From assembly GCA_027485645.1 (NCBI GenBank), contig JAIXQR010000001.1:551632-615631 (forward strand): a DNA stretch of 64,000 nucleotides. The letters are read 5' to 3'. Made by a program: the position numbers and the translations under genes. The DNA comes from a bacterium. Its GTDB lineage: Bacteria; Armatimonadota; Fimbriimonadia; Fimbriimonadales; Fimbriimonadaceae. Below are positions 8,075 through 22,500 of this stretch, in pieces. Position 1 is the first letter of the stretch; every line of letters begins with the position of its first letter. The notes beneath the pieces are model-generated. The model was not told the origin of the DNA. It ran no database searches and saw nothing but the letters and a program-made list of their open reading frames with translations.

Positions 8075-9058
8075 ATGCGACTAGTGGCCGCTTCACCCTT
8101 TGCGAAGAAGAACGAATATCGATTGCTTCGGAATCATCAAAAGGTTCAGCTTCAACAACTCTTGATCGAAGCGCGGTCGTACAAGGATCTTTTAACCGAA
8201 GAGGATTCGAAGCTGATCGAAGAGATCGGCAAAATTCTTCCCACCGAGTGGACGCTCGAATCGCTTTTCCAGATCGAGTTGATCCTGCTGAAGCACCGTC
8301 CGATCAAGGTCCTTTTGGGGTTGCGAGCCGGATTTGAACAGGAGTACGCGGCGGTTGGCGGAAAGGGATCGCCACTGTCTGGAGTAGATGAGGACGATGA
8401 TGAGGAACAGATTCGGTCCCGATTTACGGCGCATCACCTCACGTACAGCCGACTGCGAGCGGCATCGCATGTATCGCAGTCGAGTCGGCGTAAGACCTTG
8501 CGAATTGGTATCTGCGCGACGATCATAGTAGTGGCGCTTGCGTGCCTTCTGCTCACCTTGTTCTCGAGCGGGCGAGACATCTACTTGCCTTCCTTTGGTA
8601 TGGCGATGTTGATGGGCTTGCTTGGTGGACTCGTTTCGACGATTGCTCCGTTGCTCGGAGGACAGATATCGGTTACGGCGGATGACGATCAAGAAACGAA
8701 CAGCGCCCTGCGGGCCACCGTGTTCTTCGGGCCGGTCTTGGGTTGTTGTTTCGCCGGAATTCTGTATTTGATCTTCGCTGCGAACATCATCACGCTCGAT
8801 CTGTTTCCGAAGATCCTAACGCCAGACGCCAAAGAGTTCGACAAACTCTCGGCGAAGTTCATGCTGCCGATTGGGAAGGCCGCGCTAGAGAACAACCAAG
8901 AGCTATCGATCGCCCGGATGCGACTGTTCCTGGGCAAGGTTTATCCGGCTTCTGGCCAGGACTTCTGCAAGCTCATGTTTTGGTCATTCATTGCCGGATA
9001 CGCCAATCGCCTGGTGCCGGACATGCTGGCCAAGATTTCGCAGGGCCACCGAAAGTAG
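8075..9058 (+). CDS. Membrane protein, unrecognised
   Basis: 327 residues. A soluble helical N-terminal half (about 1-140) contains an acidic loop (DEDDDEEQ). Three hydrophobic segments follow, at about 145-165 (IGICATIIVVALACLLLTLF), 172-195 and 213-240, then a C-terminal soluble tail with WSFIAGYANRLVPDMLAKI. I do not recognise the family, and the tail motif may be a useful search handle. Either ATG 8075 or GTG 8084 could be the start. A -10-like TACGAT overlaps the ATG, and no Shine-Dalgarno is visible for either. It converges with hemW, five bases apart. Confidence 0.7.
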   Translation: MRLVAASPFAKKNEYRLLRNHQKVQLQQLLIEARSYKDLLTEEDSKLIEEIGKILPTEWTLESLFQIELILLKHRPIKVLLGLRAGFEQEYAAVGGKGSPLSGVDEDDDEEQIRSRFTAHHLTYSRLRAASHVSQSSRRKTLRIGICATIIVVALACLLLTLFSSGRDIYLPSFGMAMLMGLLGGLVSTIAPLLGGQISVTADDDQETNSALRATVFFGPVLGCCFAGILYLIFAANIITLDLFPKILTPDAKEFDKLSAKFMLPIGKAALENNQELSIARMRLFLGKVYPASGQDFCKLMFWSFIAGYANRLVPDMLAKISQGHRK

Positions 9059-9063
9059 GGGTA

Positions 9064-10170
9064 CTAGACTAGGGCAAGCGCGACTTCTGAACAAAAGTGC
9101 CGACCGGCTCCCGTAAGGCGAACCCGGTTTTCAATGGTTTCGGTCCAGCCTCGTTCGTGCGTGCGCTGGAGGTCGAGAGGCTTTATCCAAGCGGCTGGGA
9201 TCCCTTCGCGCAAACGTAGTCCAAGCATGATCCGTTCGAGCCGCTCGGATTCTTCCGTCAGAACTTCGGACTCAAAGGCGAGGGATTTCTGCTCGTTGAT
9301 GGCGGCTACGTAACGCTCGGGAAGCTTTAGATTCGTGTAGCGCATCATGCCTTCTTCGATAGGAAGGCAACCCACCGCCCCTGGCCCGTAGCCAGCGTAC
9401 GGATGGCCGTACCAGTACTCAAGGTTATGTTTGCATTCCAAACCCGGCTTGGCGAAGTTGCTGATTTCGTAGTTTTCAAACCCTTCGGCGGCGCAGCGGG
9501 CGTGGCAGTCTTCGTACATTTCCACCTGCATGTCATCGTCGGGCTGGGTGATCTCGCCGCGTAGGTGCTTTTTGTAGAACGCAGTGTTCGGCTCAATGGT
9601 GAGGCAGTAGAGGCTCAGGTGTTCTGGCTTTAGGGCCATCGCTCGGTCGAGGTTGCGGTTCCAGGCGTGGCGGCTTTGGTTTGGCAGGGCGAACATCAAA
9701 TCGAGGTTGATGTTGTCAAATCCGGCCTCACGGGCAGCCGCAACCGCGCGCTCGATGTCGCCGCTTTGGTGGACGCGGTCGAGACGCTTTAGGTCGCCGT
9801 CGTCAAAGCTCTGCGCCCCGAGGCTGATGCGGTTGAAGCCCGCCTGTCGCATCGCGCTGAACTTGCTGGCGTCGACCGTGCCGGGGTTCGCCTCGCTGGT
9901 GATTTCTGCTCCTTCAATCGGCGGATGGGCATCGAGGACCGCTTCGAAAACGGTCAGGAGGTCTCGTTCAGAGAGATAAGTCGGCGTGCCGCCGCCAAAG
10001 AAAATGGTTTTCGCTGGAACGCCAAACACCGGTGACCGACGGATTTCTTCGGCGATGGCATTCGCGGTCAGAGTCTGGATGTCGCCGGTCTGCGCATACG
10101 AGTTGAAGTCGCAGTATCCGCACTTGCTGGGGCAGAACGGGATGTGAACGTAGACGGCGATGCTGTCCAA
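9064..10170 (-). CDS. hemW: Radical SAM heme chaperone HemW
   Basis: Member of the coproporphyrinogen III oxidase-like radical SAM family; HemW binds heme and delivers it to target proteins. The first radical-SAM cluster ligands are C13, C17 and C20 in CPSKCGYC, lacking the extra cysteine that true HemN carries one residue later. Also present are the SAM-binding GGGTPTYL, the TSEANPGT segment, RISLGAQSF and the C-terminal HemN_C region (LGLRLREGI). The start is TTG 10170. It lies 26 bases downstream of the last member of the tandem paralogue array on the same strand and may be co-transcribed with it. Length (368) is typical. Confidence 0.93.
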   Translation of the reverse strand: MDSIAVYVHIPFCPSKCGYCDFNSYAQTGDIQTLTANAIAEEIRRSPVFGVPAKTIFFGGGTPTYLSERDLLTVFEAVLDAHPPIEGAEITSEANPGTVDASKFSAMRQAGFNRISLGAQSFDDGDLKRLDRVHQSGDIERAVAAAREAGFDNINLDLMFALPNQSRHAWNRNLDRAMALKPEHLSLYCLTIEPNTAFYKKHLRGEITQPDDDMQVEMYEDCHARCAAEGFENYEISNFAKPGLECKHNLEYWYGHPYAGYGPGAVGCLPIEEGMMRYTNLKLPERYVAAINEQKSLAFESEVLTEESERLERIMLGLRLREGIPAAWIKPLDLQRTHERGWTETIENRVRLTGAGRHFCSEVALALV

Positions 10171-10196
10171 GGATTCAGTTTACTGGCGAAGCGCGC

Positions 10197-10892
10197 TCAC
10201 CGCGTCAGACCACCGATCGTCCGGGCCGTTTGCAACTCGGGCCTGCTGCAGGCCTCGATGGCGCTTGCAAGGGGACCTGCTAACGTGCCTTCCTGGTCGA
10301 TTACGCTGCCGCGCTCGTGCAACGACACCAGACTTGGGAGCAAGCTCTTATTCGCACAAATGTTTGCTATGCGCAATAGGGTTTTTAGGCGTGACGATAG
10401 CGTCTCGGTTGACAACAGATCAATAAGATGCTTGATCGTTTCATCCGAAATTTCACGGCGATGATGTGGGTAAAGATGCTTCGTAAGGTAATCCAGCGAA
10501 TTCCATACGCCGGCAACGTGATACTCGTCTGTCGGATGCAACTCCGCAACTGACTTGGCTTTTCTCAGCAGACGCGGTAGGTCCGAAATTTTACTCGTAA
10601 GTACGGTTTTCGGCGGCCGCAGATTAAGCTCTAAAATCAGATTAACCCCCTCGATAATCGATATTAGAAATATGAGGATTGCTACATCCTTGTAAGTCAG
10701 TTCAAAGTCCTGGGTTCTTATCCAAGCAGCCAACGCTACGACAAAGACAGTCGCGACGAGCACCAGATGGATCACGGAAGCAATCAGGCGAGTACTTGCG
10801 ATTCTGGCCTTCCTTCTAGCTTCCGCTTGATGATCGAAGTCGGTGATGATGCTCTCATCAGTTTGAGTGATGTCCGTGCGCAGTTCCTTCAT
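10197..10892 (-). CDS. Tandem-array two-TM protein, copy A
   Basis: One of five adjacent paralogues on the minus strand, in a family I do not recognise. A polar N-terminus (about 1-30) precedes two membrane segments (about 34-60, with HLVLVATVFVVALAAWI, and about 68-90). A soluble helical domain of about 130 residues carries the family signature: SKISDLPRLLRKAKSVAEL, VWNSLDYLTKHLYPHHR, LLSTETLSSRLKTLLRIA and LLPSLVSL. The C-terminus RTIGGLTR nearly repeats that of copy C (RAIGGLAK). ATG start, no obvious Shine-Dalgarno. Base composition looks more AT-rich than the flanking hemW and sugar-kinase genes. Confidence 0.72.
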   Translation of the reverse strand: MKELRTDITQTDESIITDFDHQAEARRKARIASTRLIASVIHLVLVATVFVVALAAWIRTQDFELTYKDVAILIFLISIIEGVNLILELNLRPPKTVLTSKISDLPRLLRKAKSVAELHPTDEYHVAGVWNSLDYLTKHLYPHHRREISDETIKHLIDLLSTETLSSRLKTLLRIANICANKSLLPSLVSLHERGSVIDQEGTLAGPLASAIEACSRPELQTARTIGGLTR

Positions 10893-10954
10893 TGGATGGC
10901 AGCCCTATTGCGAAACATCTCTCTCATTTCGATCCTATTTGAGCAGCCTTGCGC

Positions 10955-11632
10955 CTACTTAGACCTCTCACCAGTGGACGTTGCCACTCTAGTGCCGGCA
11001 TGCTTGCAGGCTTGAAGGGCCTGATCAACCTGAACCGCTAGATTACCGGTTTGGTCGATCGCGTCAGCTCGTGACTTTAGGCGTTCGAGACTCAATACCA
11101 GGGACTCATTTGCCGCAATTTGGGCAAGGCGAGCAAGGACGACAACTCTGGCTAGGTGAGATTCGGTCTCTAGAAGTGAGTTTAGCTGGGCTAATGCGGA
11201 CTGCGAAAAGTGCTTTCTATGTCGGGGCTTGAGCTTCTTTGAGAGATAGTCCAACTCGAACCAAGCCGTGTAAGCCTGTTCTCCAAATCCTGGGTTTCGG
11301 GCAGCAGCATCGATAAGCCGGGAAACCTTTTTTCCATTCCACGGGAGTCCTCGGAATGGCGTGTCTGATTGGCTATAGAAGTGATCGAGTAGGACCGAGT
11401 AAAGGAGCAGCAGTTGCATCAGTGCGAACATTGTTGGATGGCCAAAAATCGTCATCCCTAAAACTTTTCCGACCGGCCAAGAGAGTCCTATTAGGACTAC
11501 TAAGACTGTATAGATGCGCAGCCCGAGAGCTAGCCCTTTAGCTCGATTTGTCTGGTCAGGTCTTTTCAAGTCTCCGAAACTTTCGGTAGCGCTCGATGCG
11601 GGCTGTGGATTGTCGGTTTGTAGTTCGCTCAC
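10955..11632 (-). CDS. Tandem-array two-TM protein, copy B
   Basis: Second paralogue (225 residues, GTG start at 11632). The N-terminal tail is polar, and two hydrophobic segments lie at about 35-62 and 67-86 (TMFALMQLLLLYSVLL). The soluble domain keeps YLSKKLKPRHRKHFS, LLETESHLARVVVLARLAQIA and SLVLSLERLKSRA, followed by an IDQTGNLAVQVDQALQACK helix shared with copy A (VIDQEGTLAGPL). The SELPRLL element is diverged to GKKVSRLIDAA. Function unknown. Confidence 0.7.
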   Translation of the reverse strand: MSELQTDNPQPASSATESFGDLKRPDQTNRAKGLALGLRIYTVLVVLIGLSWPVGKVLGMTIFGHPTMFALMQLLLLYSVLLDHFYSQSDTPFRGLPWNGKKVSRLIDAAARNPGFGEQAYTAWFELDYLSKKLKPRHRKHFSQSALAQLNSLLETESHLARVVVLARLAQIAANESLVLSLERLKSRADAIDQTGNLAVQVDQALQACKHAGTRVATSTGERSK

Positions 11633-11694
11633 TTGCTGGCCAACTCCAGTTTGTAGGATGAGTGCCCGTGTAGGCGTGTTGAATTCTCGACCAT

Positions 11695-12432
11695 TTACTT
11701 TGCCAAGCCTCCAATGGCCCGCACAGATTTAGGTGCGACTTTGCTACACGCCTCGACCGCCAAGGCGATTTGCTCGGCTAGTTTATGAGTGGGATCAAGA
11801 TTGTCTGCGACTAGTCGCAACGTCTTGAGCTCGGGCAGGAGCTTTGAATCTGCAGCGATCGTCGCAAGACGCACGAGCACCACTAGTCGCTCCGGTAGCG
11901 TTTCCGTGGCCAGTAAGTGCTTCAGATTCTCCACCGCACGATCAGCGAAATGCGGCTTGTGGTGAGGATGCAGCTTTTTGGACAGGTAGCTCAGGCAACT
12001 CCAGACATTTACGTACTCGCTCTCATCGTGGGGAGCGAGTACGGCGACTTGTTTTGCCTTCTCGAGCAGTCGCGGCAGTTCGGATGGCTTTGAAGTCCAT
12101 TCTTCCGTTGCGAAATCGAAAATGCCTTTCCGTCGTTTCCGTTCGACAATCACCATCATTCCAGCAAGCATGAAGAACTTGCCAAGATAATCAAAGGGTT
12201 GATGAATGCCAGCGAAGTGGCTGTACATATATTCAGCAAAGGCGGCCGACAAAACGTAAAAGCCAGTGAAGACGAATAAAAGTGGTGTCCAGAATGCCCT
12301 CCAGTCTTCAGAGGGTTTTGGCTTCTTCGGTGTCAGCGCAGTTGAAGGGACGTCGGCCTCCGTCAAAGCGACCGAGATGTCCGATGATGCCCGCATTGGC
12401 TCTAACGGTAGTTCATGTTTCTGCTGAGCCAT
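11695..12432 (-). CDS. Tandem-array two-TM protein, copy C
   Basis: Third paralogue (245 residues, ATG start at 12432). It has the clearest consensus of the family: SKPSELPRLLEKAKQVAVL, VWSCLSYLSKKLHPHHK, LLATETLPERLVVLVRLATI and LLPELKTLRLVADNL. Membrane segments sit at about 45-70 (WTPLLFVFTGFYVLSAAFAEY) and 84-98. The N-terminus is long, acidic and Pro/Thr-containing. C-terminal RAIGGLAK matches copy A, suggesting A and C are the closest pair. Function unknown. Confidence 0.72.
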   Translation of the reverse strand: MAQQKHELPLEPMRASSDISVALTEADVPSTALTPKKPKPSEDWRAFWTPLLFVFTGFYVLSAAFAEYMYSHFAGIHQPFDYLGKFFMLAGMMVIVERKRRKGIFDFATEEWTSKPSELPRLLEKAKQVAVLAPHDESEYVNVWSCLSYLSKKLHPHHKPHFADRAVENLKHLLATETLPERLVVLVRLATIAADSKLLPELKTLRLVADNLDPTHKLAEQIALAVEACSKVAPKSVRAIGGLAK

Positions 12433-12438
12433 GGGAGT

Positions 12439-13059
12439 TTACGAAGTGGCGGGTAGGGCACTGCTGCAGGTGGTGCAGGCGAGGGCGATTTGGTCCTCCA
12501 GGCCGTTACTCGGGGCCTGGGCGCGGAGGGAATTTAGGCTTGGCAGCAGCACAGGATCTCCCGCAACTTGGGAAAGGCGAACCAGAACCGCGAGCCGCTT
12601 TGGGTCGGTTTCCTCAGTCAACATCTCCGCGACATCCGTGATGATCTCGGAAGTGAAGAAGCTCTGATGATGGGAGTAGAGTTCGGTGGAGAGGAACGCC
12701 AACTCCGACCAGACTTCAGTTGACTCGTTCGGCCCTAAGTTGCCGCGTTTGGCCTTCTGAAGGAGCTGAGCGAGCTTGGATGCCTTGAGGCTGACCTCGG
12801 TTGGGATGAATTTTTTATCGAAATCGATCAACCAGATCGTCACGGCCAGGAGGGTTGTCTGGAGGATCGATGCGACCGGGTTTACGACCAATTCAAGGCG
12901 GTTGGTGATCCAGCAGATGACGAAAAGGCACAGCGCCAAGCCGCAGAGCACTAGGCAGGCAATAATCGTGGGCCGCAGCCAGGATGGCCGCGCGGTCAGG
13001 TGAGTTGGCGCTAAGATGCCGTCGCCGGAAGTCGCGCTTGGGCTGGCATTGCTTTTCAA
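12439..13059 (-). CDS. Tandem-array two-TM protein, copy D
   Basis: Fourth paralogue (206 residues) with a TTG start at 13059; GGTGA a few bases upstream may serve as the ribosome-binding site. Membrane segments are at about 32-52 (IIACLVLCGLALCLFVICWI) and 58-78. The soluble domain keeps KASKLAQLLQKAKRGNLGPNE, VWSELAFLSTELYSHHQSFF, LTEETDPKRLAVLVRLSQVA and LLPSLNSLR. The CTTCSSALPATS tail parallels the AIEACS/ALQACK helix of the others. Six bases separate its stop from the copy C start codon. Function unknown. Confidence 0.7.
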   Translation of the reverse strand: MKSNASPSATSGDGILAPTHLTARPSWLRPTIIACLVLCGLALCLFVICWITNRLELVVNPVASILQTTLLAVTIWLIDFDKKFIPTEVSLKASKLAQLLQKAKRGNLGPNESTEVWSELAFLSTELYSHHQSFFTSEIITDVAEMLTEETDPKRLAVLVRLSQVAGDPVLLPSLNSLRAQAPSNGLEDQIALACTTCSSALPATS

Positions 13060-13134
13060 CTTAGGTCACCGATGCATCGAAGCTGGCGGTAGTTTATCGC
13101 AGGCAACCGGCATTTACCAACCTTTTTGTGCCCG

Positions 13135-13811
13135 TCAAGCGAACTTTGCGCAGGACGAGATGGCATCGCGGAGGGCGACGCGGAGGTTGTCGAGAACGTC
13201 GAGATCCTTGGTTCGATCTTTGAGGTCTCGAAGGAGCGGAAGCAACTCGGGGTCGGCGGCGATGCCGGCAATGCGGACGAGGGTTTCGAGCCGGTTTCGG
13301 AGGCGAGGAAGCCTTTGAGATCGCCAAGCGCATCTTCGGTGATGGCGGTTCTGTGCTCAGGATCAAGCTTTTGGGAGAGATAGCTGAGGGCTCTCCAAAC
13401 GCCAAGATTGGCTTCCTCGAAGTCGGCCGAAAGGTGCATGACCTCTACCGCTTTCTTCAGCAACCGGGGAAGCTCAGACGCCTTTGAGGTGAATGGTTCA
13501 GGGGTGAGTTCTACAATTTCTTCCTCGTCTTCTAGCCAAGACTTGTAATCGAACACCGCGAAAAGTACGAGCCAAACTGCGGCCGAGGCTAGTACTAAGT
13601 CTAGATCAACTCGCTTGCCCCTGCTGAAGTCGGAGACCGCATGAATCGAAGACCAAAAAAATGCCCATGCAACGAAGGCTAGCAATGTTCTCGGCGAGGG
13701 AAGTCGGAAGAGTTTACGCACTTGACGTTCGACGGGGCCGCTTACGTCGGCAGAAGCGGAAGCCTCCACGTCCGAAGCAAGGTCGCTCTGTTCCTCCGAA
13801 TGCTGAGTCAA
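13135..13811 (-). pseudogene. Tandem-array two-TM protein, copy E, frameshifted
   Basis: Fifth paralogue and the first to be transcribed. Residues up to about 173 follow the family: two hydrophobic segments (about 38-58 and 70-88), FTSKASELPRLLKKAVEVMHL, VWRALSYLSQKLDPEHRTAI and LKGFLASET. After Thr (codon 13293-13295) the frame is lost. The original frame runs on as unrelated Pro/Ser-rich sequence to 13056. Shifting by two bases at 13291-13292 restores family sequence (LETLVRIAGIAADPELLPLL and so on) to a TGA at 13135-13137. Paralogue alignment suggests about 10 bases were lost between SET and LETLVRI. It is either a real inactivated copy or an assembly error; read-through frameshifting is less likely. 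Confidence 0.72.
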
Positions 13812-13857
13812 CTTTCCTCCACTTGCTCCGGCCTTATCTTAACTCGCAATGCGCCGC

Positions 13858-13890
13858 GAAAGAAAGTGCAGGCCCCTAGATTCCTGCACT
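13858..13890 (-). terminator. Intrinsic terminator after the PfkB-type kinase
   Basis: A perfect inverted repeat, AGTGCAGG (13865-13872) and CCTGCACT (13883-13890), forms an 8-bp stem with a 10-base loop that includes the kinase stop codon. Read on the minus strand, the stem is followed by the pyrimidine/T-rich tail TTCTTTC. It would separate the oxidoreductase-kinase operon from the tandem array. Confidence 0.55.
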
Positions 13891-14853
13891 AACGTCGGCT
13901 CGCCATTCACCCTCCAACCTCGCATGGAGTTCGGCGGACGTTGGGATTCCGGAGACGGCGTCGGCGGACTCGCAGCAGAAGGCGCCGACGCCGCAGCCTA
14001 GGCGGACCGACTCGTGCGGGCCGAGGCCCTGGTGGCGGCCGTAGAGGTAGCCGGCGATTGTCGCGTCTCCGGCTCCGGTGGCCCCGACGACTTGGACGGG
14101 GAAGCAGCGGTGCCAGAGTGCGCCGTCCGCGTCGGAGAGCAAAACGCCTTCTTCGCCGCACTTCAAAACAACCCGCGTGGCGCCGAGTTCATGGGCTTTG
14201 GTCGCACCCTCCGCCGGGGTGCGAGTGTCGAACATGGTGCTGAGGTCGTCTTGGCTCGGCATGAAGTCGTCGACGTGCGGCAACACTCCGCTCAGAATTC
14301 GGGTCCAGTCCACTTGACCGGCTAGGGATTCGGTGTCGGGCACGCTAAGGTCGAGCGAGGTCGATAGCCCAGCGGCTTTTGCGCGGCGGAAGAGGTCGGT
14401 CAGCTCTTCGCCATCGCGCTCGATCATGCTGCGCATGAGGGGTGGATAGCCGAAGTGAAGGTGGTCGGCGAGGCGCAGGGCTTCGTCGGTGACGGTTTGC
14501 GACGAGAACTCGGCGTTCGCGCCGGGGAAGTGCAGGAACATTCGGTCCTGGCCGGGTGGGTTCAGGACGATTGAGTACGAGGTCGATACGTCGTTTCGAA
14601 CCTGAAAGCCGCGGGCGAGGGGGCCAAGGAGGGCGGTGATGTTTTGGCCGAACAGGTCATTCCCGACGAGTCCGACCATGGTCGTCGGTACCCCGAGCCG
14701 GTCGAGGGCGCGGCCGACGTTGCTCACCGCGCCGCCGGTGCTGAGGGTCGCGGAGCCGACTTCGATTAGGCTGCCGGGGATGAATCCGTCGAACCGGTCG
14801 AGCTTCGGAATGATATCGAGGCAGATGTGGCCTGCGACGAGAACGCGTTTCAT
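13876..14853 (-). CDS. PfkB-family carbohydrate kinase
   Basis: ATP-dependent kinase of the ribokinase/PfkB family. I chose the ATG at 14853 because KRVLVAGHICLDIIPKLDRF is the normal family start and the codon overlaps the upstream oxidoreductase stop (ATGA); a longer upstream extension is low-complexity. Family signatures are GGAVSNVGRALDRLGVP near the N-terminus and the C-terminal anion-hole/catalytic GATGAGDATIAGYLYG, where the catalytic base aspartate is intact although the usual DTTGAGD opens with GA. The sugar cannot be named from sequence. Coupling to a Gfo/Idh/MocA dehydrogenase suggests catabolism of a polyol or modified sugar. Confidence 0.87.
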   Translation of the reverse strand: MKRVLVAGHICLDIIPKLDRFDGFIPGSLIEVGSATLSTGGAVSNVGRALDRLGVPTTMVGLVGNDLFGQNITALLGPLARGFQVRNDVSTSYSIVLNPPGQDRMFLHFPGANAEFSSQTVTDEALRLADHLHFGYPPLMRSMIERDGEELTDLFRRAKAAGLSTSLDLSVPDTESLAGQVDWTRILSGVLPHVDDFMPSQDDLSTMFDTRTPAEGATKAHELGATRVVLKCGEEGVLLSDADGALWHRCFPVQVVGATGAGDATIAGYLYGRHQGLGPHESVRLGCGVGAFCCESADAVSGIPTSAELHARLEGEWRADVSAGI

Positions 14854-15974
14854 ACCGATTCGGTGGTGCCGTGGGCTTGCGACTTGAGCGCGGCGGTGAA
14901 GAGCCGATGGCTCAGGAGGGCCTCGGCGAGCGTTGCCACCGGGAACGGCGGGGTTTCGCCGGCAAGCTCGGTCAGGTAGGCCGCCCACATTTGTAGGATC
15001 GCGTCGCTGAAGCCGAACTCGAAGATGTGGCCGGTAATGCTCTTAAAGGCATGTGGCTGGCCGAGGCTTTCCTCGCGCCATTCCTGCGGTTGGCCGCTTT
15101 GGTAGCGGAGGGTCCGCAGGGTTTTCGGCTGGGCGGTGCTGAACTGGGCCGACATTTTGGTGCCGTAGATTTCCAGCTTCCACGAGTTGGTGTCGCCGGG
15201 GGAGATGCGCTTGGTTTCTAAGAGCATAGTGGCTCCGGCTTCGGTTTGGCAAAGCAGGGTCGCGTTGTCCCAGGTTTCGCACGGGACCGGCTCGCCGTTC
15301 GGTCCGAGGCGGGTTTTCACAATGTTCGAGAGCGCGGCGCGGACGTTGGCGGGGTGGAATCCGAGCCGAAACGGGACGTGGCAAACGTGCAGGCCGAGAT
15401 CGCCCATGCAGCCGTACTCGCCGTTGAAGGCAATCTGCCGCTTCCAGTTGATCGGCTTGTTCGGGTCGAGGTCGCTGCAATGGTTAAAGGCAGCGCGGAT
15501 TTCGAAAATCTCGCCGAATTCACCGGCTTCCACGTGGTGGATGATGCGCTGGACGGCGGGATAGAACGGGAACTCGGAGGAGATTCCGATCTTCACTTCG
15601 GGGTGCGCGGCGGAAATCTTCGCGATTTCCTCGGCGGATTCGAGGTCGATTCCGAACGGCTTTTCGGCGAACAAGTGCTTTCCGGCTTCGATGACTTGGC
15701 GGTAGATCGGCAAGTGCAGGTGGTGCGGAACGGCGACGTAGACGGCGTCGATGTCGCTATTCAGCAAGGTCGCGAGGTCGTCGGTGGCGAGGGTGACGGT
15801 CGGCACGTTCTGCTGGAACCAGTCCCGCGCGGCCGGGGCCGGGTCGCAGATGGCGGTGATGACCGGCTTCGCGGGCACGCCTTCGAGGTGGAACCACCGC
15901 GCCGCCGCGCTGGCGAACTCCTTCCCCATGAGCCCACCCCCAATCACGCCGAACTTGAAAGCCTGTACCGGCAT
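14850..15974 (-). CDS. Gfo/Idh/MocA family oxidoreductase
   Basis: NAD(P)-dependent sugar or polyol dehydrogenase of the Gfo/Idh/MocA family. An N-terminal Rossmann motif (FGVIGGGLMGKEFA) comes first, then the AVYVAVPHHLHLPI strand and the family's EKPFG motif with its conserved lysine, giving a two-domain enzyme of normal length (374). Its stop overlaps the downstream kinase start (ATGA), so the two form a coupled operon. It is strongly GC-rich compared with the tandem array downstream. Substrate unknown. Confidence 0.88.
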   Translation of the reverse strand: MPVQAFKFGVIGGGLMGKEFASAAARWFHLEGVPAKPVITAICDPAPAARDWFQQNVPTVTLATDDLATLLNSDIDAVYVAVPHHLHLPIYRQVIEAGKHLFAEKPFGIDLESAEEIAKISAAHPEVKIGISSEFPFYPAVQRIIHHVEAGEFGEIFEIRAAFNHCSDLDPNKPINWKRQIAFNGEYGCMGDLGLHVCHVPFRLGFHPANVRAALSNIVKTRLGPNGEPVPCETWDNATLLCQTEAGATMLLETKRISPGDTNSWKLEIYGTKMSAQFSTAQPKTLRTLRYQSGQPQEWREESLGQPHAFKSITGHIFEFGFSDAILQMWAAYLTELAGETPPFPVATLAEALLSHRLFTAALKSQAHGTTESV

Positions 15975-16373
15975 GGCGCGAGTATACGACGCGGGGCGCT
16001 CTGAGCTTCGCGCCTTGTCCTTCGCGCTCTGTGTGGCCTTGTGCTGCCTTGAGTCTTGAAATTAATTAACGCTCCCCCCTAGGCGGATTAATTAATTACA
16101 CGGCAAATTGGGTTCGAGAGGGGCGCTTTGCGTGGCCTTGTGTGGCTTTGCCTGGCTTTGCGTTGCGATTGTCCAGCACAGTATAGAGAAGGTGAAACGG
16201 CGGAAGGTCAACCTAGGATTTAGAGATTTGTGTTGTTTCGCTGTCGGGCTCCGATTGGATTGGGCGCGGCCGTCGGATGAATCTGGGAGCTTGCGAAAAC
16301 TTGCCGTACACTTGAAGGCGTGGATGGGGCAGACACCGTTCGGTCGAGAAATGAGGGGTTTCCGTTAGAACCC
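15975..16373. other. Non-coding divergent region with palindrome and direct repeats
   Basis: A 399-base region between divergent genes without a convincing ORF. It contains an AT-rich palindrome (16060-16097) and, on either side of it, two imperfect copies of a GC/T-rich repeat (16023-16050 and 16122-16149) sharing GTGGCCTTGTG. A short hairpin GGGTT/AACCC (16356-16373) sits directly before the next start codon. It presumably holds promoters for both flanking genes, but none is clear. Confidence 0.5.
16060..16097. repeat. AT-rich palindrome
   Basis: The perfect 10-bp inverted arms AATTAATTAA (16060-16069) and TTAATTAATT (16088-16097) flank an 18-base centre whose ends can partly extend the stem (CGC with GCG). 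It is striking against the GC-rich neighbourhood. It could be an operator or a cruciform-forming site; no U-tract in the right position argues against a simple terminator. Confidence 0.6.
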
Positions 16374-16847
16374 ATGATTCCGACAATGGCTGATGCTCCT
16401 GATCCGTTCCGAGTGAAGATCGAAAAATTGAAGCCATCGCAGTTTCAAACGCTGGCGGTGCATGACAGACATCGAAGGGTTCTCAGCTATTCCAGCAACG
16501 CTCGAATTGCGCATAGCTACAATCTGGAGAGTGCGAGCGCCACGGCACTGATTGAGCTGGGCGAATCGGCCGAAATCGTCTCGGTCGAGGTTCATTACCG
16601 GAAGCTTGGGCCGCAGTTGCCCTTTGAAGCGATCGAAGGAATCCGGAATGTTGAGGGTTCCGTTCAGATGCCGGACTTGGGTCAAGCGGCCTGCGAAGTG
16701 TTTGTGTGGGAGGGTCGCTATCCGTTCGTCGGATTCAACGATGCCGCGCCGGACCTGTTCGTCTCGGGGCACGGACTACTGTTCGCGATTCGGAATCAGC
16801 GGCTCATTGGAATCGGATTCACCGACATCACGGAGCACCGAATCTGA
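16374..16847 (+). CDS. Hypothetical protein, unrecognised
   Basis: About 157 residues from ATG 16374; a GTG at 16320 or ATG 16386 are alternative starts and no Shine-Dalgarno decides. The protein has no signal peptide or membrane segment and alternates predicted strands (VKIEKLK, SVEVHYRKLG, CEVFVWEGRYPFVGF, LLFAIRNQRLIGIGF), suggesting a small beta-rich cytoplasmic fold. I recognise no family. The next gene begins 55 bases downstream. Confidence 0.5.
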   Translation: MIPTMADAPDPFRVKIEKLKPSQFQTLAVHDRHRRVLSYSSNARIAHSYNLESASATALIELGESAEIVSVEVHYRKLGPQLPFEAIEGIRNVEGSVQMPDLGQAACEVFVWEGRYPFVGFNDAAPDLFVSGHGLLFAIRNQRLIGIGFTDITEHRI

Positions 16848-16902
16848 TGGCGTCCCATCGGGCCGTTGTTCGTGCAACAAGGTTCGAGCCCTTCGAAAAG
16901 CG

Positions 16903-17226
16903 ATGATTGTCGATGACATCGAAAAGTCGTATTGGGGGTCTTGGGCGGCGGCACTTGCTGGGCTAGCGGCTTGCTCGGGGATTTTCCTAGCGATTCTGAT
17001 CGGAAACTATCAAAACATCACCGCATCGGGAAAGCTTGTTATCGGCAAGAAGTACTTTCCGCAGAGGATCATCGTCGGCGAGGAGTTGCAACGCATCGTG
17101 GTGGACATGCGGATTCAGATTGCGTGTATGAGCGTACTTACCGCCGCGCTTCTGATCGCGAGCGCGTGGACCGGAATTCTGGCATGGATCGACTACAAGC
17201 GGCGATATGAAGTTGAGCTGGATTGA
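16903..17226 (+). CDS. Small two-TM membrane protein, unrecognised
   Basis: 107 residues from ATG 16903; the frame is open much further upstream but only this part looks protein-like. There are two hydrophobic segments (WAAALAGLAACSGIFLAILI and MSVLTAALLIASAWTGILAW) separated by a charged loop of about 50 residues, with a basic juxtamembrane end (DYKRRYE). Function unknown. Two hairpins follow the stop codon. Confidence 0.5.
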   Translation: MIVDDIEKSYWGSWAAALAGLAACSGIFLAILIGNYQNITASGKLVIGKKYFPQRIIVGEELQRIVVDMRIQIACMSVLTAALLIASAWTGILAWIDYKRRYEVELD

Positions 17227-17251
17227 TCGGCGTTAACGCGGGATCCTGCAT

Positions 17252-17317
17252 CACAGGAGGATGAGCCTGTGCGAGGCCTCACCCCCTGCCCCCTCGTCCA
17301 CCGGAGTGGAGAGGGGG
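17252..17317. repeat. Two adjacent hairpins, one GC-rich palindromic element
   Basis: CACAGG/CCTGTG (17252-17257, 17266-17271) forms a small hairpin. It is followed by a much stronger palindrome at 17289-17317: CCCCCTC and TCCAC pair with GTGGA and GAGGGGG around a CGGA loop with one bulged G. The second element, preceded by a CACCCCCTGCC run, resembles interspersed palindromic repeats found in some GC-rich genomes. Only one copy is present in the window. Confidence 0.5.
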
Positions 17318-17404
17318 TTCACGCGTCCTCGGCTGCGTTCCGAAATTTGGCTATGCGAACTCACTCGGCCCGAGTCAGCTATTTGAGTTTCTGATTGCGG
17401 TTAC

Positions 17405-17905
17405 GTGGATGAAGTTGGGGCGTTAACTCTTGTGAACGGAAAGTGCGCTGGTAGAGCGCTAGACCGTTTATCTAGGAGCAATTTGCTTTACCTTTTAGCC
17501 TTGTCATCCATTCTCGCTTCCGACGACGCGTGGCCGCAGTTTGAGGTGCGGACTGGTAAGTACGTTATTTCGATCTCGCAAGCGGAAGTGAAACGGGACG
17601 TTCATTGTTGGGGATTTGATCCGTACTTTGAAATGCCGGCGACCAAGGTCGGGATCTCCATCATAAAAGAGGGCCAAACGTACTATCCAAGTTTTTCGGC
17701 GTATTCCGACTTGAGCAGTTTGCATGGCGTGGAATGGAAGAAGAGTGGGGACCGGCTGATCGTCACGGGAAAAGGGGGTGACGCGAGCGTCGGGTACTCG
17801 GTGAAGTGGACTTTTCGGAATGGTGCCTTAGTTCGGCGTGAAGTTCGGGCCAGCGAGTTTCCCGAGAATGAGTATGAGATCACGGAATACGTCTATAAAC
17901 CGTAA
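17405..17905 (+). CDS. Hypothetical protein, possibly secreted
   Basis: Up to 166 residues from GTG 17405, but the first 25 or so residues look spurious. A hydrophobic stretch (SNLLYLLALSSILA) could be a signal peptide read from a later TTG start near 17483. The rest is beta-rich (KYVISISQAEVKRDVHCWGF, KVGISIIKEGQTYYPSF, VGYSVKWTFRNGALVRREV). No family recognised. The gene lies among other small orphans. Confidence 0.42.
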   Translation: MDEVGALTLVNGKCAGRALDRLSRSNLLYLLALSSILASDDAWPQFEVRTGKYVISISQAEVKRDVHCWGFDPYFEMPATKVGISIIKEGQTYYPSFSAYSDLSSLHGVEWKKSGDRLIVTGKGGDASVGYSVKWTFRNGALVRREVRASEFPENEYEITEYVYKP

Positions 17906-17910
17906 GAAGA

Positions 17911-17939
17911 TTAAGTCTCGTCGCAAGCTTCGCTAGAAT
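17911..17939 (+). promoter_or_regulatory. Putative promoter of the 17955 gene
   Basis: TTAAGT (17911-17916) and TAGAAT (17934-17939) are separated by 17 bp. The -10 matches five of six consensus positions, the -35 three. Transcription would begin near 17946, only a few bases before the ATG at 17955, giving an almost leaderless message. Confidence 0.35.
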
Positions 17940-17954
17940 CCGCATCTAACTCAA

Positions 17955-18695
17955 ATGTTTCTCCTCTCCCTCTTTCTCCAAGCTCCGACGCAGGCCGAGG
18001 TTTATCCTCGGTTCTTTATGCGGGAGTTGGTGACCGGACCCCAACTCATTGCGGAGCAGCGGCACGATTTGATCTATCGGAAGACCACCGAGCTTCGATA
18101 TGACGACCGGGGGCAGCCGATTCCGCAGTCGCACATCACGCGGCGGTTGGGGTGGTGTACATATGGCGTCACCGAGGGCGAGCACTTTGGGGAGCCTTGC
18201 CGCGTGGTGCGCTGGTACACGCGGTACAAGCCGGAAAGTGGAGACGCGGATGCGGATGTGGAGCATCGGTTCTATGTGACCCCCGAGGGCAAGATTCTTC
18301 GGCAGGTTTCACGATCGACCTATCCCAAGCCACGGTTGGCGAACATTTTGGTGACCGACGCCGGGCTGCAGGTGATGGTCTCGGATGCCGACGGTAATCG
18401 CGGTTTCGATCTGGAACTTGCCGACCTGAAGCCTTACGTCAACGCCTTTGTGCCGTACGAAAGCGGAACGAAGGAGGTGGTTCTTTACGATCCATTTCGC
18501 AACGGACTCTCCCGGTTCACGGTGTCGCTGGCATCGTATTTCACCGACAGTTGGGACGGGCGGCGGTACAAGGGAAAGTCGTACGCGATCGACAAAGGAA
18601 AGCTGTACTTGACCGATTCTGGGAAGCCGTATCGGTGTGAGCTCAGCGAGTTTGTGGGCTTTGAACCGTTTGTCGAAGGATTACGTTCTAAATAG
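17955..18695 (+). CDS. Hypothetical secreted protein
   Basis: 246 residues with a short N-terminal signal-like segment (MFLLSLFLQAPTQAE). The mature part is beta-rich and polar, with several aromatic strands (LGWCTYGVTEGEHFGEPCRVV, VEHRFYVTPEGKILRQVSRS). I recognise no domain. It may be a lipid- or carbohydrate-binding periplasmic protein, but that is only a guess. The small membrane-protein gene begins one base after its stop. Confidence 0.6.
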   Translation: MFLLSLFLQAPTQAEVYPRFFMRELVTGPQLIAEQRHDLIYRKTTELRYDDRGQPIPQSHITRRLGWCTYGVTEGEHFGEPCRVVRWYTRYKPESGDADADVEHRFYVTPEGKILRQVSRSTYPKPRLANILVTDAGLQVMVSDADGNRGFDLELADLKPYVNAFVPYESGTKEVVLYDPFRNGLSRFTVSLASYFTDSWDGRRYKGKSYAIDKGKLYLTDSGKPYRCELSEFVGFEPFVEGLRSK

Positions 18696-18696
18696 T

Positions 18697-18873
18697 ATGA
18701 ATCCGGTTTTTAAGGCGATCCTTGGCTTGGGCGGTGGCGCGCTGATGGGCTATGGCTACCACATGACCATGCGTTGCACCGGAAGCGTCTGCATCAACTC
18801 GCGGATTCCGGCGGTGCCGATCGGCGTTATGGCGGTTATCGGTCTGCTCGTCGCCCTGAACTCGCGGCCCTGA
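18697..18873 (+). CDS. Small membrane protein, DUF6132-like
   Basis: 58 residues from ATG 18697, one base after the preceding stop. There are two membrane helices (VFKAILGLGGGALMGYGYH and PIGVMAVIGLLVAL) joined by a loop with two cysteines (RCTGSVCINSRIP). The spacing of Cys, Gly and the short turn resembles DUF6132 proteins (C-x-S-G-x-C-x-I-T-S-N-P), which often sit near rhodanese genes; none is adjacent here. The family assignment is tentative. Confidence 0.5.
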   Translation: MNPVFKAILGLGGGALMGYGYHMTMRCTGSVCINSRIPAVPIGVMAVIGLLVALNSRP

Positions 18874-18874
18874 T

Positions 18875-19706
18875 TTAGTCGATCCCGAGTTCGGTCAGCT
18901 CGGCAGCGATTGCGGCCTTGTCGAAGTGTCGGCTTTCGATCGGGAAAAGGAATCCGTTGTTTCCCGGCCAAAGCTGGCTTTCGTTGAAGCCCTTGTTTCC
19001 GGTGCTGATGTTCACATGTGCAAAAGCGGATCCAGAAAGCCCAAGCGCGTCTGGCATGAGGTAGCCCTGGAGAGTGCGGCTGGAGTCAAAGATGCCGGAG
19101 ATCCCTTTTCCTATTGCGGAAGTGCCCTTGCTGGCGACGGTCACCGCTTTGGTAGCTTGAATCGTATAGGTTCCGCCGACTCCGCGCACTCGGGCGTTCA
19201 GTGGCTTTGAGTCGGTCGGTAGCAAACGAATGGCGTAAACCGGATTGGTGAGCTTCGGCAAGACCGCGGGTACGAGGGCTGACTTTCCTTCGGCAAGAAG
19301 GTGAAACGCGGTGACCTCGTCTGGCACGAGATGATTTCGTAGCTCAAAGCGCCAAGGCTTATCGGGGAAATTGCCGTGGACGGTGCCTACCAGAGCGTCT
19401 CCGTTCGGCAAGGCGCGAAGCTGCATTACGATGTTGCCGTTGATGTCTCGGGAGATGAAGTCGTAGCGAGTGCAGCGACCATCTAGGTCATACGTCGCGG
19501 CAGAAGTGTTGTAGAGGTCCGCGTTGGCAGAAACGGCCGGGTTGTCTTGCCAATGGGCGATGATTCGCGTTCCATCGGCAGACTCCTTTTTGATTCGATG
19601 CACGACGGCGATCATCTCGTCCGCCCGCATCTGCGCGCTGGCAAACCAGCCGAGCGACTGGTACGTCGTTGTCCCTGCTGCGAGCGCCATTAGTGCGGTA
19701 ATCATC
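18875..19706 (-). CDS. Hypothetical exported protein
   Basis: 277 residues from ATG 19706, supported by GGGTTGAG directly upstream on the minus strand. The frame extends further into argS but the extra sequence is a low-complexity shadow. The N-terminus MITALMALAAGTTTYQSLGW looks like a signal peptide. The body resembles outer-membrane lipoprotein-sorting (LolA-like) proteins in layout: ADEMIAVVHRIKK, then alternating strands (GDALVGTVHGNFPDKPWRFELRN). That resemblance is weak. It lies 31 bases downstream of the argS stop on the same strand. Confidence 0.55.
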
Positions 19707-19737
19707 TCAACCCTAATGTATTGACGCGCTGAATTGA

Positions 19738-21579
19738 CTAAGAAGTTGGGGCTTCTTGAGCTGCGCGTTCCATTCTTTCCGGCGCCGAAATTCCCAGCAA
19801 GTCCAAGGCGGCTTGGAGGGCGTTTTTGGTAAGGCGGCAGAGGTCGAGGCGAGCTCGGCTGAGCTCCGGCTGTTCCGGTTGCACCACGCGACAAGCGTCG
19901 TAGAAGTGGTGGAACAGGCGCGCTAGTTCGACCACGTAGGTGGTGAGGCGATGCACGCCGTAATCCTTGGCGCAACGCTCGACTTCCCACGGCAGGTCGA
20001 GAATTTTCTTGATCAGGACGCCTTCGCGTGGGTGGACAAGGAGGGCATGGTCGGCGCTTCCAGCTTCGATTTCCCCGGCTCGGGCGAGCACAGAGCAGAT
20101 TCGGGCGTGGGCGTATTGGGCGTAGAACACCGGGTTTTCGTCGCTTTGGCGGGCAGCGAGGTCGAGGTCGAAGTCCATCGCGGTGTCGTGGCTTCGCATC
20201 AGATAGAAGAAGCGGGTGACGTCGCGGCCGATGCGCTGCTGTTCTTCAGCGTCCGCGTTTGGCGCGGTGCTCTGGCCGATCTCGTTGATGAGGTCGATGA
20301 GGGCGTAGATGTTGCCATCGCGCTTGCGCATCGGCGCGGGCTTGCCTTCTTTTAGGAACCGGACGACCTGGAAGATGACGACTTCCAGCTTCTCGCGAGC
20401 GGTGGCGGTGGCCTCTTCGTCGGTTTGGTCGGTGGTCTGGAGCAGGGCGGCAACAACGGCGTTTAGGCGGCCGATGTAGCCGTGGTGATCTGGGCCAAGG
20501 ACGGTGATGAGCTTGTTCGCGTTGGCGGGGCGATTGAACTTGTCCGCGTGGTAGGCGACGTCGCTGGAGATGTAGGTCAGGCGGCCATCGCGTCGGCGAA
20601 GCACGCGGTCTTGGTCGTCGCCGAATTTGGTGCTGCGGAGCCAAAGAGTCTTCCCGCTACCCTCGGCGTCGTCTTCATCCTTCACCGTCTCCTGCGGCTC
20701 GATCTCGGTTTCTTCGACTTTGCCCTTAACGATTTTGACTTTGGTGCGGAACGGCTGATCGTCGGCGACGCCTTTCGCGGTGAGTTCGTCGAGGCGCTGG
20801 GCGACGACGCCGGAGTCGTGGAGCGACTGTTCGGAGAACCAAGTGTCGAAGGTGACGCCGAAGGTCGCGAGATCGCGGGCCTGGGCTTGGAGCATCAGGT
20901 CTTGGCTTGCGAGCTTAACGTCTGCAGGAATCGTTCCTTTCAAGGCTTCGGCGACAGCCACGACATAGTCGCCTTTGTAGCCGTTATCCGGTACCGGCTC
21001 GCCTCGGAGCAGGGCGGCGACGGACTCGGCGAATAGGCGCATCTGCTCGCTGTTCACGCCATCGTTGATGTAGTACTCGCGGTGGACTTCGTTTCCGGCG
21101 GCGGCGAGGACGTTGCAGAGAGCCGAACCGAAGGCGGCACCGCGACCGGAGCCGATGGTGATCGGTCCGTTCGGGTTGACAGAAACGAATTCGACGTTGA
21201 TCTTCTTGCCTTCGGGCTGCGGGCTACGGGTAAGGTCTTTGGTGCCGAGTCCAAGCGCCGGGGTGACATAGGCGGCAATGGCGGTTGGCTTCAGGCGCAG
21301 GTTCAAAAAGCCGGGGCCCGCGACTTCGACGTCGTCCAAAGTGCTGCCACCGTCGGCCTCAAGGATTGCGGTTCGCAGAGCTTCGCCGAGCTGGCGCGGA
21401 TTCATTCCGGCCGCCTTGCTGGCGACCATGGCGAGGTTGCAGGCGAAGTCGCCGTGCTCGAGCTGCTTGGTGTCGGAGATTTCCGGTCGAAAATCGGCCA
21501 GGACCGTCGGAAGAGTTCCGGCAGAAATTTGAGCGGCCACGGCGCGCGCGATGAGGCTTTGAAGGTCGTTGCGAAGCAA
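19738..21579 (-). CDS. argS: Arginyl-tRNA synthetase
   Basis: Charges tRNA-Arg with arginine. Domain order is normal: an N-terminal additional domain (1-110), the catalytic core (EFVSVNPNGPITIGSGRGAA), and a DALR anticodon-binding domain at the C-terminus (VELARLFHHFYDACRV). Length 613. The HIGH signature, usually H-x-G-H or similar in this enzyme, reads T-I-G-S here, so both histidines are replaced. The KMSK-equivalent loop is PMRKRDGN. The rest of the fold is well kept, so I still call it ArgRS. It diverges from the epimerase gene, 45 bases away. Confidence 0.93.
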   Translation of the reverse strand: MLRNDLQSLIARAVAAQISAGTLPTVLADFRPEISDTKQLEHGDFACNLAMVASKAAGMNPRQLGEALRTAILEADGGSTLDDVEVAGPGFLNLRLKPTAIAAYVTPALGLGTKDLTRSPQPEGKKINVEFVSVNPNGPITIGSGRGAAFGSALCNVLAAAGNEVHREYYINDGVNSEQMRLFAESVAALLRGEPVPDNGYKGDYVVAVAEALKGTIPADVKLASQDLMLQAQARDLATFGVTFDTWFSEQSLHDSGVVAQRLDELTAKGVADDQPFRTKVKIVKGKVEETEIEPQETVKDEDDAEGSGKTLWLRSTKFGDDQDRVLRRRDGRLTYISSDVAYHADKFNRPANANKLITVLGPDHHGYIGRLNAVVAALLQTTDQTDEEATATAREKLEVVIFQVVRFLKEGKPAPMRKRDGNIYALIDLINEIGQSTAPNADAEEQQRIGRDVTRFFYLMRSHDTAMDFDLDLAARQSDENPVFYAQYAHARICSVLARAGEIEAGSADHALLVHPREGVLIKKILDLPWEVERCAKDYGVHRLTTYVVELARLFHHFYDACRVVQPEQPELSRARLDLCRLTKNALQAALDLLGISAPERMERAAQEAPTS

Positions 21580-21624
21580 GTCAGAGAGGGTACCGGAAGC
21601 CTAGGAAACGGTAGCCTGAGGACG

Positions 21625-22500
21625 ATGAAAATTCTGGTGACGGGCGGCTCGGGCAGGCTTGGAAAGTATGTGATGGAAGAGCTTGCGGCGGCTGGTCACT
21701 GGGCCATCAATGTGGACAAGAACCCCGGCGAATCGCGCCGTTGGGGCAACTACATTGGGGTTGACCTGAGCAATGCGGGGCAGATTTACGACGTGATGCT
21801 GGAGGTCAAGCCAGACGCGGTGGTTCACCTTGCCGCGGACCCTCGGGCGGGTTACGTTCCGCGGAATCATCAGTTCGTGTCGAACGTCGGCATGACGCAC
21901 AGCGTGATGATGGCGGCGGGGGATCTCGGAGTGAAACGGATTGTGTACGCGAGTTCGGAGCAGGCGAATGGCTGGTCTTCGGGCAACTTGTGTCCGCCTC
22001 GGTTTCCTTTTGGAGAAGAAGACATGACCCGTCCACGAAGTGCTTATGCGCTGAGCAAGTTGATGGGCGAAGAGATCGCAGAGAGCATCGTCGCGACGTA
22101 CCCAGACACGTCGGCGGTGAGCTTGCGCATTAACTTCATTACCGTGCCGGAGGATAGCGAATGGATTGAAAAGCGCGCGGGGCACTGGCCCGGCGGGCAC
22201 ACGAACCTTTGGGCCTACCTCGATGCGCGAGACGCGGCGACGGCCTTTCGATTGGCAGTTGAAGCACCTCGCGAGGTGCTGGGGCACGGGCATCGGGCGT
22301 ACATGGTGGCGGCGGCGGACAACCTCACGACCTTCGAGACTCGAGACGCAATCAGCCGATTTTTCGGTCCGGAGATCGAGGTTTCGCCGGAACTTGATGT
22401 GTTTGGTTCGACCGTCGACTGCGCGCGGATTACAAAAGACCTAGGCTGGCGCCCGGTTCACTCCTGGCGGAATGCCTTAAGCCCGCAAAGCGTTGAATAG
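21625..22500 (+). CDS. NAD-dependent epimerase/dehydratase (extended SDR)
   Basis: 291-residue extended short-chain dehydrogenase/reductase, probably acting on a nucleotide sugar or sugar acid. The N-terminal nucleotide-binding motif GGSGRLG, a VVHLAADP strand, the catalytic YALSK (Y-x-x-x-K) and the upstream SSEQ serine are all visible. ATG 21625 with GAGGA just upstream is preferred. The frame is open far upstream through the argS complement, but only from 21625 is it protein-like. The gene is followed within four bases by htpX. Exact substrate unknown. Confidence 0.85.
   Translation: MKILVTGGSGRLGKYVMEELAAAGHWAINVDKNPGESRRWGNYIGVDLSNAGQIYDVMLEVKPDAVVHLAADPRAGYVPRNHQFVSNVGMTHSVMMAAGDLGVKRIVYASSEQANGWSSGNLCPPRFPFGEEDMTRPRSAYALSKLMGEEIAESIVATYPDTSAVSLRINFITVPEDSEWIEKRAGHWPGGHTNLWAYLDARDAATAFRLAVEAPREVLGHGHRAYMVAAADNLTTFETRDAISRFFGPEIEVSPELDVFGSTVDCARITKDLGWRPVHSWRNALSPQSVE

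Follow-up and report, generated by a model that had tools for sequence, protein, structure and literature searches.

Five neighboring minus-strand genes, designated p1-p5 and located at 10197-13811 of the window (the whole 64,000-nucleotide stretch of DNA analyzed here), constitute one protein family through a homologous C-terminal domain, which structural models predict to be an armadillo-like helical solenoid carried behind a membrane hairpin. Among the genomes searched, the family occurs only in this species and in a sister species of the same genus (G014), where all five genes have one-to-one orthologs in identical order. We tentatively read p1-p5 as a lineage-restricted set of specialized, membrane-anchored cytoplasmic solenoid docking proteins, four of them intact and one newly frameshifted, an interpretation that we hold with somewhat less than even confidence.

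Gene Layout and Genomic Context

A preliminary description of this DNA had proposed five adjacent minus-strand genes, and the open reading frame (ORF) table bears this out to the nucleotide, with p1-p5 forming a single run. Gene p1 (10197-10892, 231 aa) encodes an N-terminal tail, a predicted transmembrane (TM) hairpin and the C-terminal, predicted armadillo-like domain (~10197-10598), and its G014 ortholog lies at L012:10818-11510. The most divergent copy, p2 (10955-11632, 225 aa, domain ~10955-11341, ortholog at L012:11576-12238), has the same layout in its AF2 model, while p3 (11695-12432, 245 aa, domain ~11695-12096) is the best-conserved copy, p4 (12439-13059, 206 aa, domain ~12439-12792) begins with a TTG start, and p5 (13056-13811) is a disrupted copy. 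Upstream of the run lie genes for a PfkB-type sugar kinase and a Gfo/Idh-type protein, and downstream lies hemW. The intergenic gaps amount to ~64 nt between the kinase gene and p5, 6 nt between p4 and p3, 62 nt both between p3 and p2 and between p2 and p1, and 26 nt between p1 and hemW, every gap from the kinase gene to hemW being at most ~65 nt. From the common strand and these short gaps we infer that p1-p5, between the kinase gene and hemW, are likely carried on a single transcript; scans of the locus for promoters and terminators gave results at chance level.

The GC content of the p1-p5 stretch is 53.6%, against 57.5%, as the AT-richness remarked on earlier had implied, and only one of 302 sliding 3.6-kb segments is equally low or lower. 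This composition agrees with a lineage-specific insertion, but fast evolution alone could also account for it. The annotated neighbors comprise tRNA synthetase genes, hemW, the PfkB-type kinase and Gfo/Idh-type genes, GH20 and ruvC (the last two named partly through sequence inspection), and no defense, toxin or mobile genes were found among them. When window positions 10170-22000 are compared with genome G011 (L066), the block running from pfkB and gfo through argS is inverted relative to hemW-GH20-ruvC, which places p1-p5 at a rearrangement junction.

On the plus strand, 8075-9058 encodes a membrane protein of 327 aa whose N-domain is helical and whose TM region is rich in glycine. In G000 and G014 its gene forms an insertion between those for GH20 and HemW, and within the phylum the protein has only sporadic distant relatives (G007, 34%; G008, 27-38%; G083; G103). 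It was considered as a partner of the p-proteins and set aside, two relatives that were inspected having no p-like neighbor. Also on the plus strand, 17955-18695 encodes a protein with no Pfam match; several other species of the genus carry divergent homologs of it (24-34% identity) close to hemW. A 230-aa minus-strand ORF at 21601-22293 agrees with G014 at 99% of third bases but is 63% identical in amino acids, and it is probably not a real gene in that frame.

Relationship Among the Five Proteins

Searching the genome itself with p3 returned the remaining four copies at E-values of 3.6e-30, 1.0e-19, 5.8e-18 and 3.1e-13, and nothing else at E ≤ 1. The C-terminal domains (~120-130 residues) align pairwise above shuffled sequences with local alignment z values of 11.7-46, which establishes p1-p5 as one family. 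For the N-terminal membrane halves, the observed pairwise score was reached by 48-953 of 1000 shuffles, and these halves therefore share an architecture with no demonstrable common ancestry; across the two species, N-halves of different paralogs likewise gave no mutual match at E < 0.01. Thus, the plan that the preliminary description had ascribed to all five proteins (two membrane helices followed by a helical domain) stands as homology for the C-terminal domain but not demonstrably for the N-terminal half, and by hydropathy the second TM helix is clear in some copies only, although both AF2 models nonetheless contain a helical hairpin.

Divergence between the copies is as large as had been described, with 25-38% identity between paralogs, and the sequence boxes then named are present, in degenerate form in p2 and p4. 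Residues that are invariant across nine intact proteins all fall in the C-domain and consist of leucines, one W, the H of the PHH box, an R, and a late A and C.

Recent duplication at the DNA level was rejected, as there are no long direct repeats. Domain swapping between paralogs was suspected because interspecies synonymous agreement jumps within p1, p2 and p5, but neighboring housekeeping genes used as controls are patchy as well (0.48-0.80, with 25-codon blocks from 6 to 25); the mosaic is therefore not family-specific and leads to no recombination conclusion for p1-p5. Over 151-25314 as a whole, synonymous agreement with G014 varies strongly between genes (0.48 to 0.80) and within genes, a variation that may reflect patchwise recombination between the two sister species.

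Predicted Structure and Topology

The AF2 models of p3 and p2, which were built on shallow nine-row alignments with the same rows for both and are hence not independent, contain two long N-terminal helices followed by seven helices, in the same helix order. The pLDDT is ~85-93 over most of the C-domain in both proteins, with an overall pLDDT of 70-72 and a pTM of 0.50-0.54. In VIA-align comparisons the closest solved folds were nearly all armadillo (ARM)-type for both models, although the Z values of ~10-11 involved are reachable by a common all-helical arrangement. For p3 these folds included APC (3nmz_B, Z 11.1, rmsd 3.2, 122 aligned), SPIN90 (6dee, Z 10.7) and beta-catenin (Z ~10.6), and for p2 SPIN90 (Z 10.7) and SARM1 (Z 10.1); Foldseek searches against the PDB gave E-values of 0.03 or weaker throughout. 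The models support an armadillo-like arrangement as a fold, rather than as kinship or function, and at that level the earlier guess of a HEAT-like C-domain finds support, an armadillo/HEAT-type solenoid being predicted in both.

Like ARM proteins such as beta-catenin, APC, importin-alpha, the ARM domain of SARM1 and designed ARM proteins, the predicted C-domain stacks two-helix units over ~100-125 residues (Z ~9-11). In contrast to them, the p-proteins are bacterial and membrane-anchored, comprise only ~three units, share 6-19% identity with them and match no ARM or HEAT profile, the likeness being one of fold only. Bacterial HEAT-repeat and PBS-lyase HEAT-like proteins are similarly composed of all-helical hairpin repeats, and the LLPxLxxLR box resembles HEAT-type helices by eye, but no member of the p-family has a Pfam HEAT match. 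Basic residues occur ahead of TM1 and behind TM2, and by hydropathy and charge both termini would be cytoplasmic.

Distribution and Database Searches

Single-sequence searches covered 61 genomes, and profile searches covered 20 genomes of the genus, two of which carry the family, and 291 genomes of the phylum, the latter with the full protein and with the C-domain alone. Across these 291 Armatimonadota genomes, copies were found in the two sister species only; profile matches at 0.002-0.5 in other genomes, which span no more than brief TM segments or pieces of long frames, were treated as chance. The hemW neighborhoods of 15 other genomes of the genus hold nothing that the family profile recognizes, the cluster being absent, and the ORFs upstream of hemW in ten of these 15, read by eye, include none of the p-type. 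Distribution beyond the phylum was covered for near relatives: a p3 scan of GTDB 220 contigs, which reaches close relatives only, returned just the G014 contig (deposited as "Chthonomonas calidirosea isolate ME-09jul19-71"). Phage and plasmid records searched with p3, and viral contigs searched with p3 and p1, yielded no homolog.

Comparison of nine members with Pfam at E ≤ 5 gave a best value of 0.029, with no credible match and no ARM or HEAT family. NCBIfam, PHROGs and PADLOC likewise gave no credible match (the best PHROGs or PADLOC value, 0.013, was to PADLOC Csx1 and confined to a TM stretch), PDB sequences yielded nothing beyond membrane segments of GPCRs, none with an E-value better than 0.5, no hit under 0.4 came from the viral fold library, and literature searches returned nothing on the family. 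These results uphold the initial view that the family is an unrecognized one. Profiles easily miss very divergent short helical domains, and the search beyond the phylum reached close relatives only, so that p1-p5 could in principle be undetected members of a well-known family; given the consistently negative results from Pfam, NCBIfam, PHROGs, PADLOC and PDB sequences, we consider this very improbable.

Orthologs and Evolutionary Rates

In a tree of the C-domains each copy groups with its own G014 ortholog, with bootstrap values of 99-100% for p1, p2, p4 and p5 and of 94% for p3. Judging from this pairing and from the five one-to-one ortholog pairs in the same order, the duplications predate the split of the two species. 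Whole intact orthologs share 41-78% identity, compared with 75-99% for most neighboring genes. The expansion had been described as either old or fast-evolving, and both terms apply, since the duplications are older than the species split and rapid evolution is seen in p2 and in the membrane halves.

The rates differ along the proteins. Between the two species p1 is 70% identical overall (N-half 48%, C-domain 85%, C-domain dN/dS 0.099), p3 is 78% identical overall (membrane half 66%, C-domain 90%, C-domain dN/dS 0.105), and p5 is 32% identical in the membrane half and ~85% in the C-domain (dN/dS ~0.2). Running against the pattern of p1, p3 and p5, p4 (75-76% identity, dN/dS ~0.29) reaches 80% in the N-half and 72% in the C-domain, and p2 is divergent throughout (41% overall, C-domain 45%). 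By these values, purifying selection between the species acts on the C-domain in most copies. In p1, p3 and p5 the domain is conserved alongside a rapidly changing membrane half, which speaks against its bearing a fast-evolving recognition surface, and the rate pattern would fit a generic anchor joined to a functional domain more readily than a recognition domain that is hypervariable.

Surface sensing and partner-specific interaction had been suggested for the cluster as possible roles alongside immunity. The immunity role, in which the membrane proteins would have diversified against competitor toxins or for phage defense, has to be weighed against this pattern. In bacterial toxin systems, tandem arrays of immunity genes consist of adjacent divergent paralogs of a small protein. 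p1-p5 resemble such arrays in their tandem diversification and in the rapid change of their membrane halves; the 41% identity of the p2 orthologs, the lowest GC of the window bar one position, and the occurrence in only two of 20 genus genomes would also fit. However, among the annotated neighbors of p1-p5 neither a cognate toxin gene nor a secretion gene was recognized, and no defense or mobile gene was found there, PADLOC and PHROGs gave no credible match beyond the TM stretch noted above, and the family is absent from the plasmids, phages and viral contigs searched. Moreover, both species hold the same five copies in the same order, with most C-domains constrained. An immunity or defense array thus found no direct support, and we regard it as quite improbable.

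Disruption of p5

The fifth gene had been taken for an intact family member, and its first part is indeed in frame, from 13811 to ~13294. There, three-frame translation reads ...LKGFLASETG and then departs from the family sequence; compared with the uninterrupted G014 gene (L012:13753-14433), ~10 nt have been lost near 13293, and an out-of-register open frame continues to 13056. In another frame, from 13293, the sequence reads RLETLVRIAGIAADPELLPLLRDLKDRTKDLDVLDNLRVALRDAISSCAKFA followed by a stop, matching the intact G014 copy (SETRRDRLETIVRICAIAADPELLPLLRDLKDRTKD...), with the continuation RLETLVRIAGIAADPELLPLLRDLKDRTKDLDVLDNL... and the stop near 13135. The listed p5 ORF is consequently missing the domain's second half and ends in ~80 out-of-frame residues, the missing half persisting out of frame as a minus-strand remnant at 13135-13293 (RLETLVRIAGIAADPELL...). 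Because this remnant is, in its own frame, 85% identical to G014 p5 with a dN/dS of ~0.2, the disruption would be either a recent ~10 nt deletion or an assembly error.

The frameshift bears in opposite ways on two further explanations. The five proteins could be subunits of one membrane assembly, with a fixed position for each paralog and solenoids that bind each other, which would fit the retention of five orthologs in identical order, the probable cotranscription and the combination of a common domain with differing membrane halves. A complex of fixed stoichiometry should, however, tolerate poorly the disruption of p5 while the other copies show no visible decay, and a hetero-oligomer is to us unlikely. 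Conversely, the frameshift, the lack of the cluster in other members of the genus, and the location at the pfkB-to-argS inversion relative to hemW-GH20 seen in the comparison with G011 would all be consistent with a lineage-specific accessory family that evolves fast and matters little, was acquired at a rearrangement breakpoint and has started to decay. Yet dN/dS values of 0.1-0.3 in several genes and a deep paralog divergence kept through speciation show that the genes have been retained by selection, and such an inconsequential family appears distinctly unlikely.

Implications

Under the docking interpretation that we tentatively favor, each protein would comprise a short polar N-terminal tail, a predicted two-helix membrane hairpin and, on what we infer to be the cytoplasmic side, a predicted armadillo-like solenoid of ~three two-helix units. 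The hairpin would act as a rather generic anchor tethering the solenoid to the membrane's inner face, the groove of the solenoid would dock a protein or peptide partner, either a client or another paralog, and the five copies, probably cotranscribed, would have split into separate specificities. Partner binding would be the most natural reading of an armadillo-like fold. The even conservation of p4 across its halves and the divergence of p2 throughout count against this interpretation, as do the shallow alignments, the pTM of ~0.5, and Z values and Foldseek E-values that common helical arrangements could also produce. It is conceivable, if doubtful, that p1-p5 encode a set of five co-expressed armadillo-like adaptors anchored in the membrane, differing in membrane segment and partner, which together make up a hitherto undescribed docking system invented in one Armatimonadota lineage.

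Taxon-restricted tandem families with a common fold class are of a known kind, and the p1-p5 family itself is unrecognized by the libraries or the literature. It presents a clean case of a taxon-restricted family, from a phylum that has received little study, which grew by tandem duplication, retained its five distinct copies through speciation, and joins a conserved armadillo-like domain to membrane segments that change rapidly. Without a function, its interest lies chiefly in annotation and evolution; if the domain docks partners, the family would provide a small bacterial equivalent of the eukaryotic ARM adaptors.
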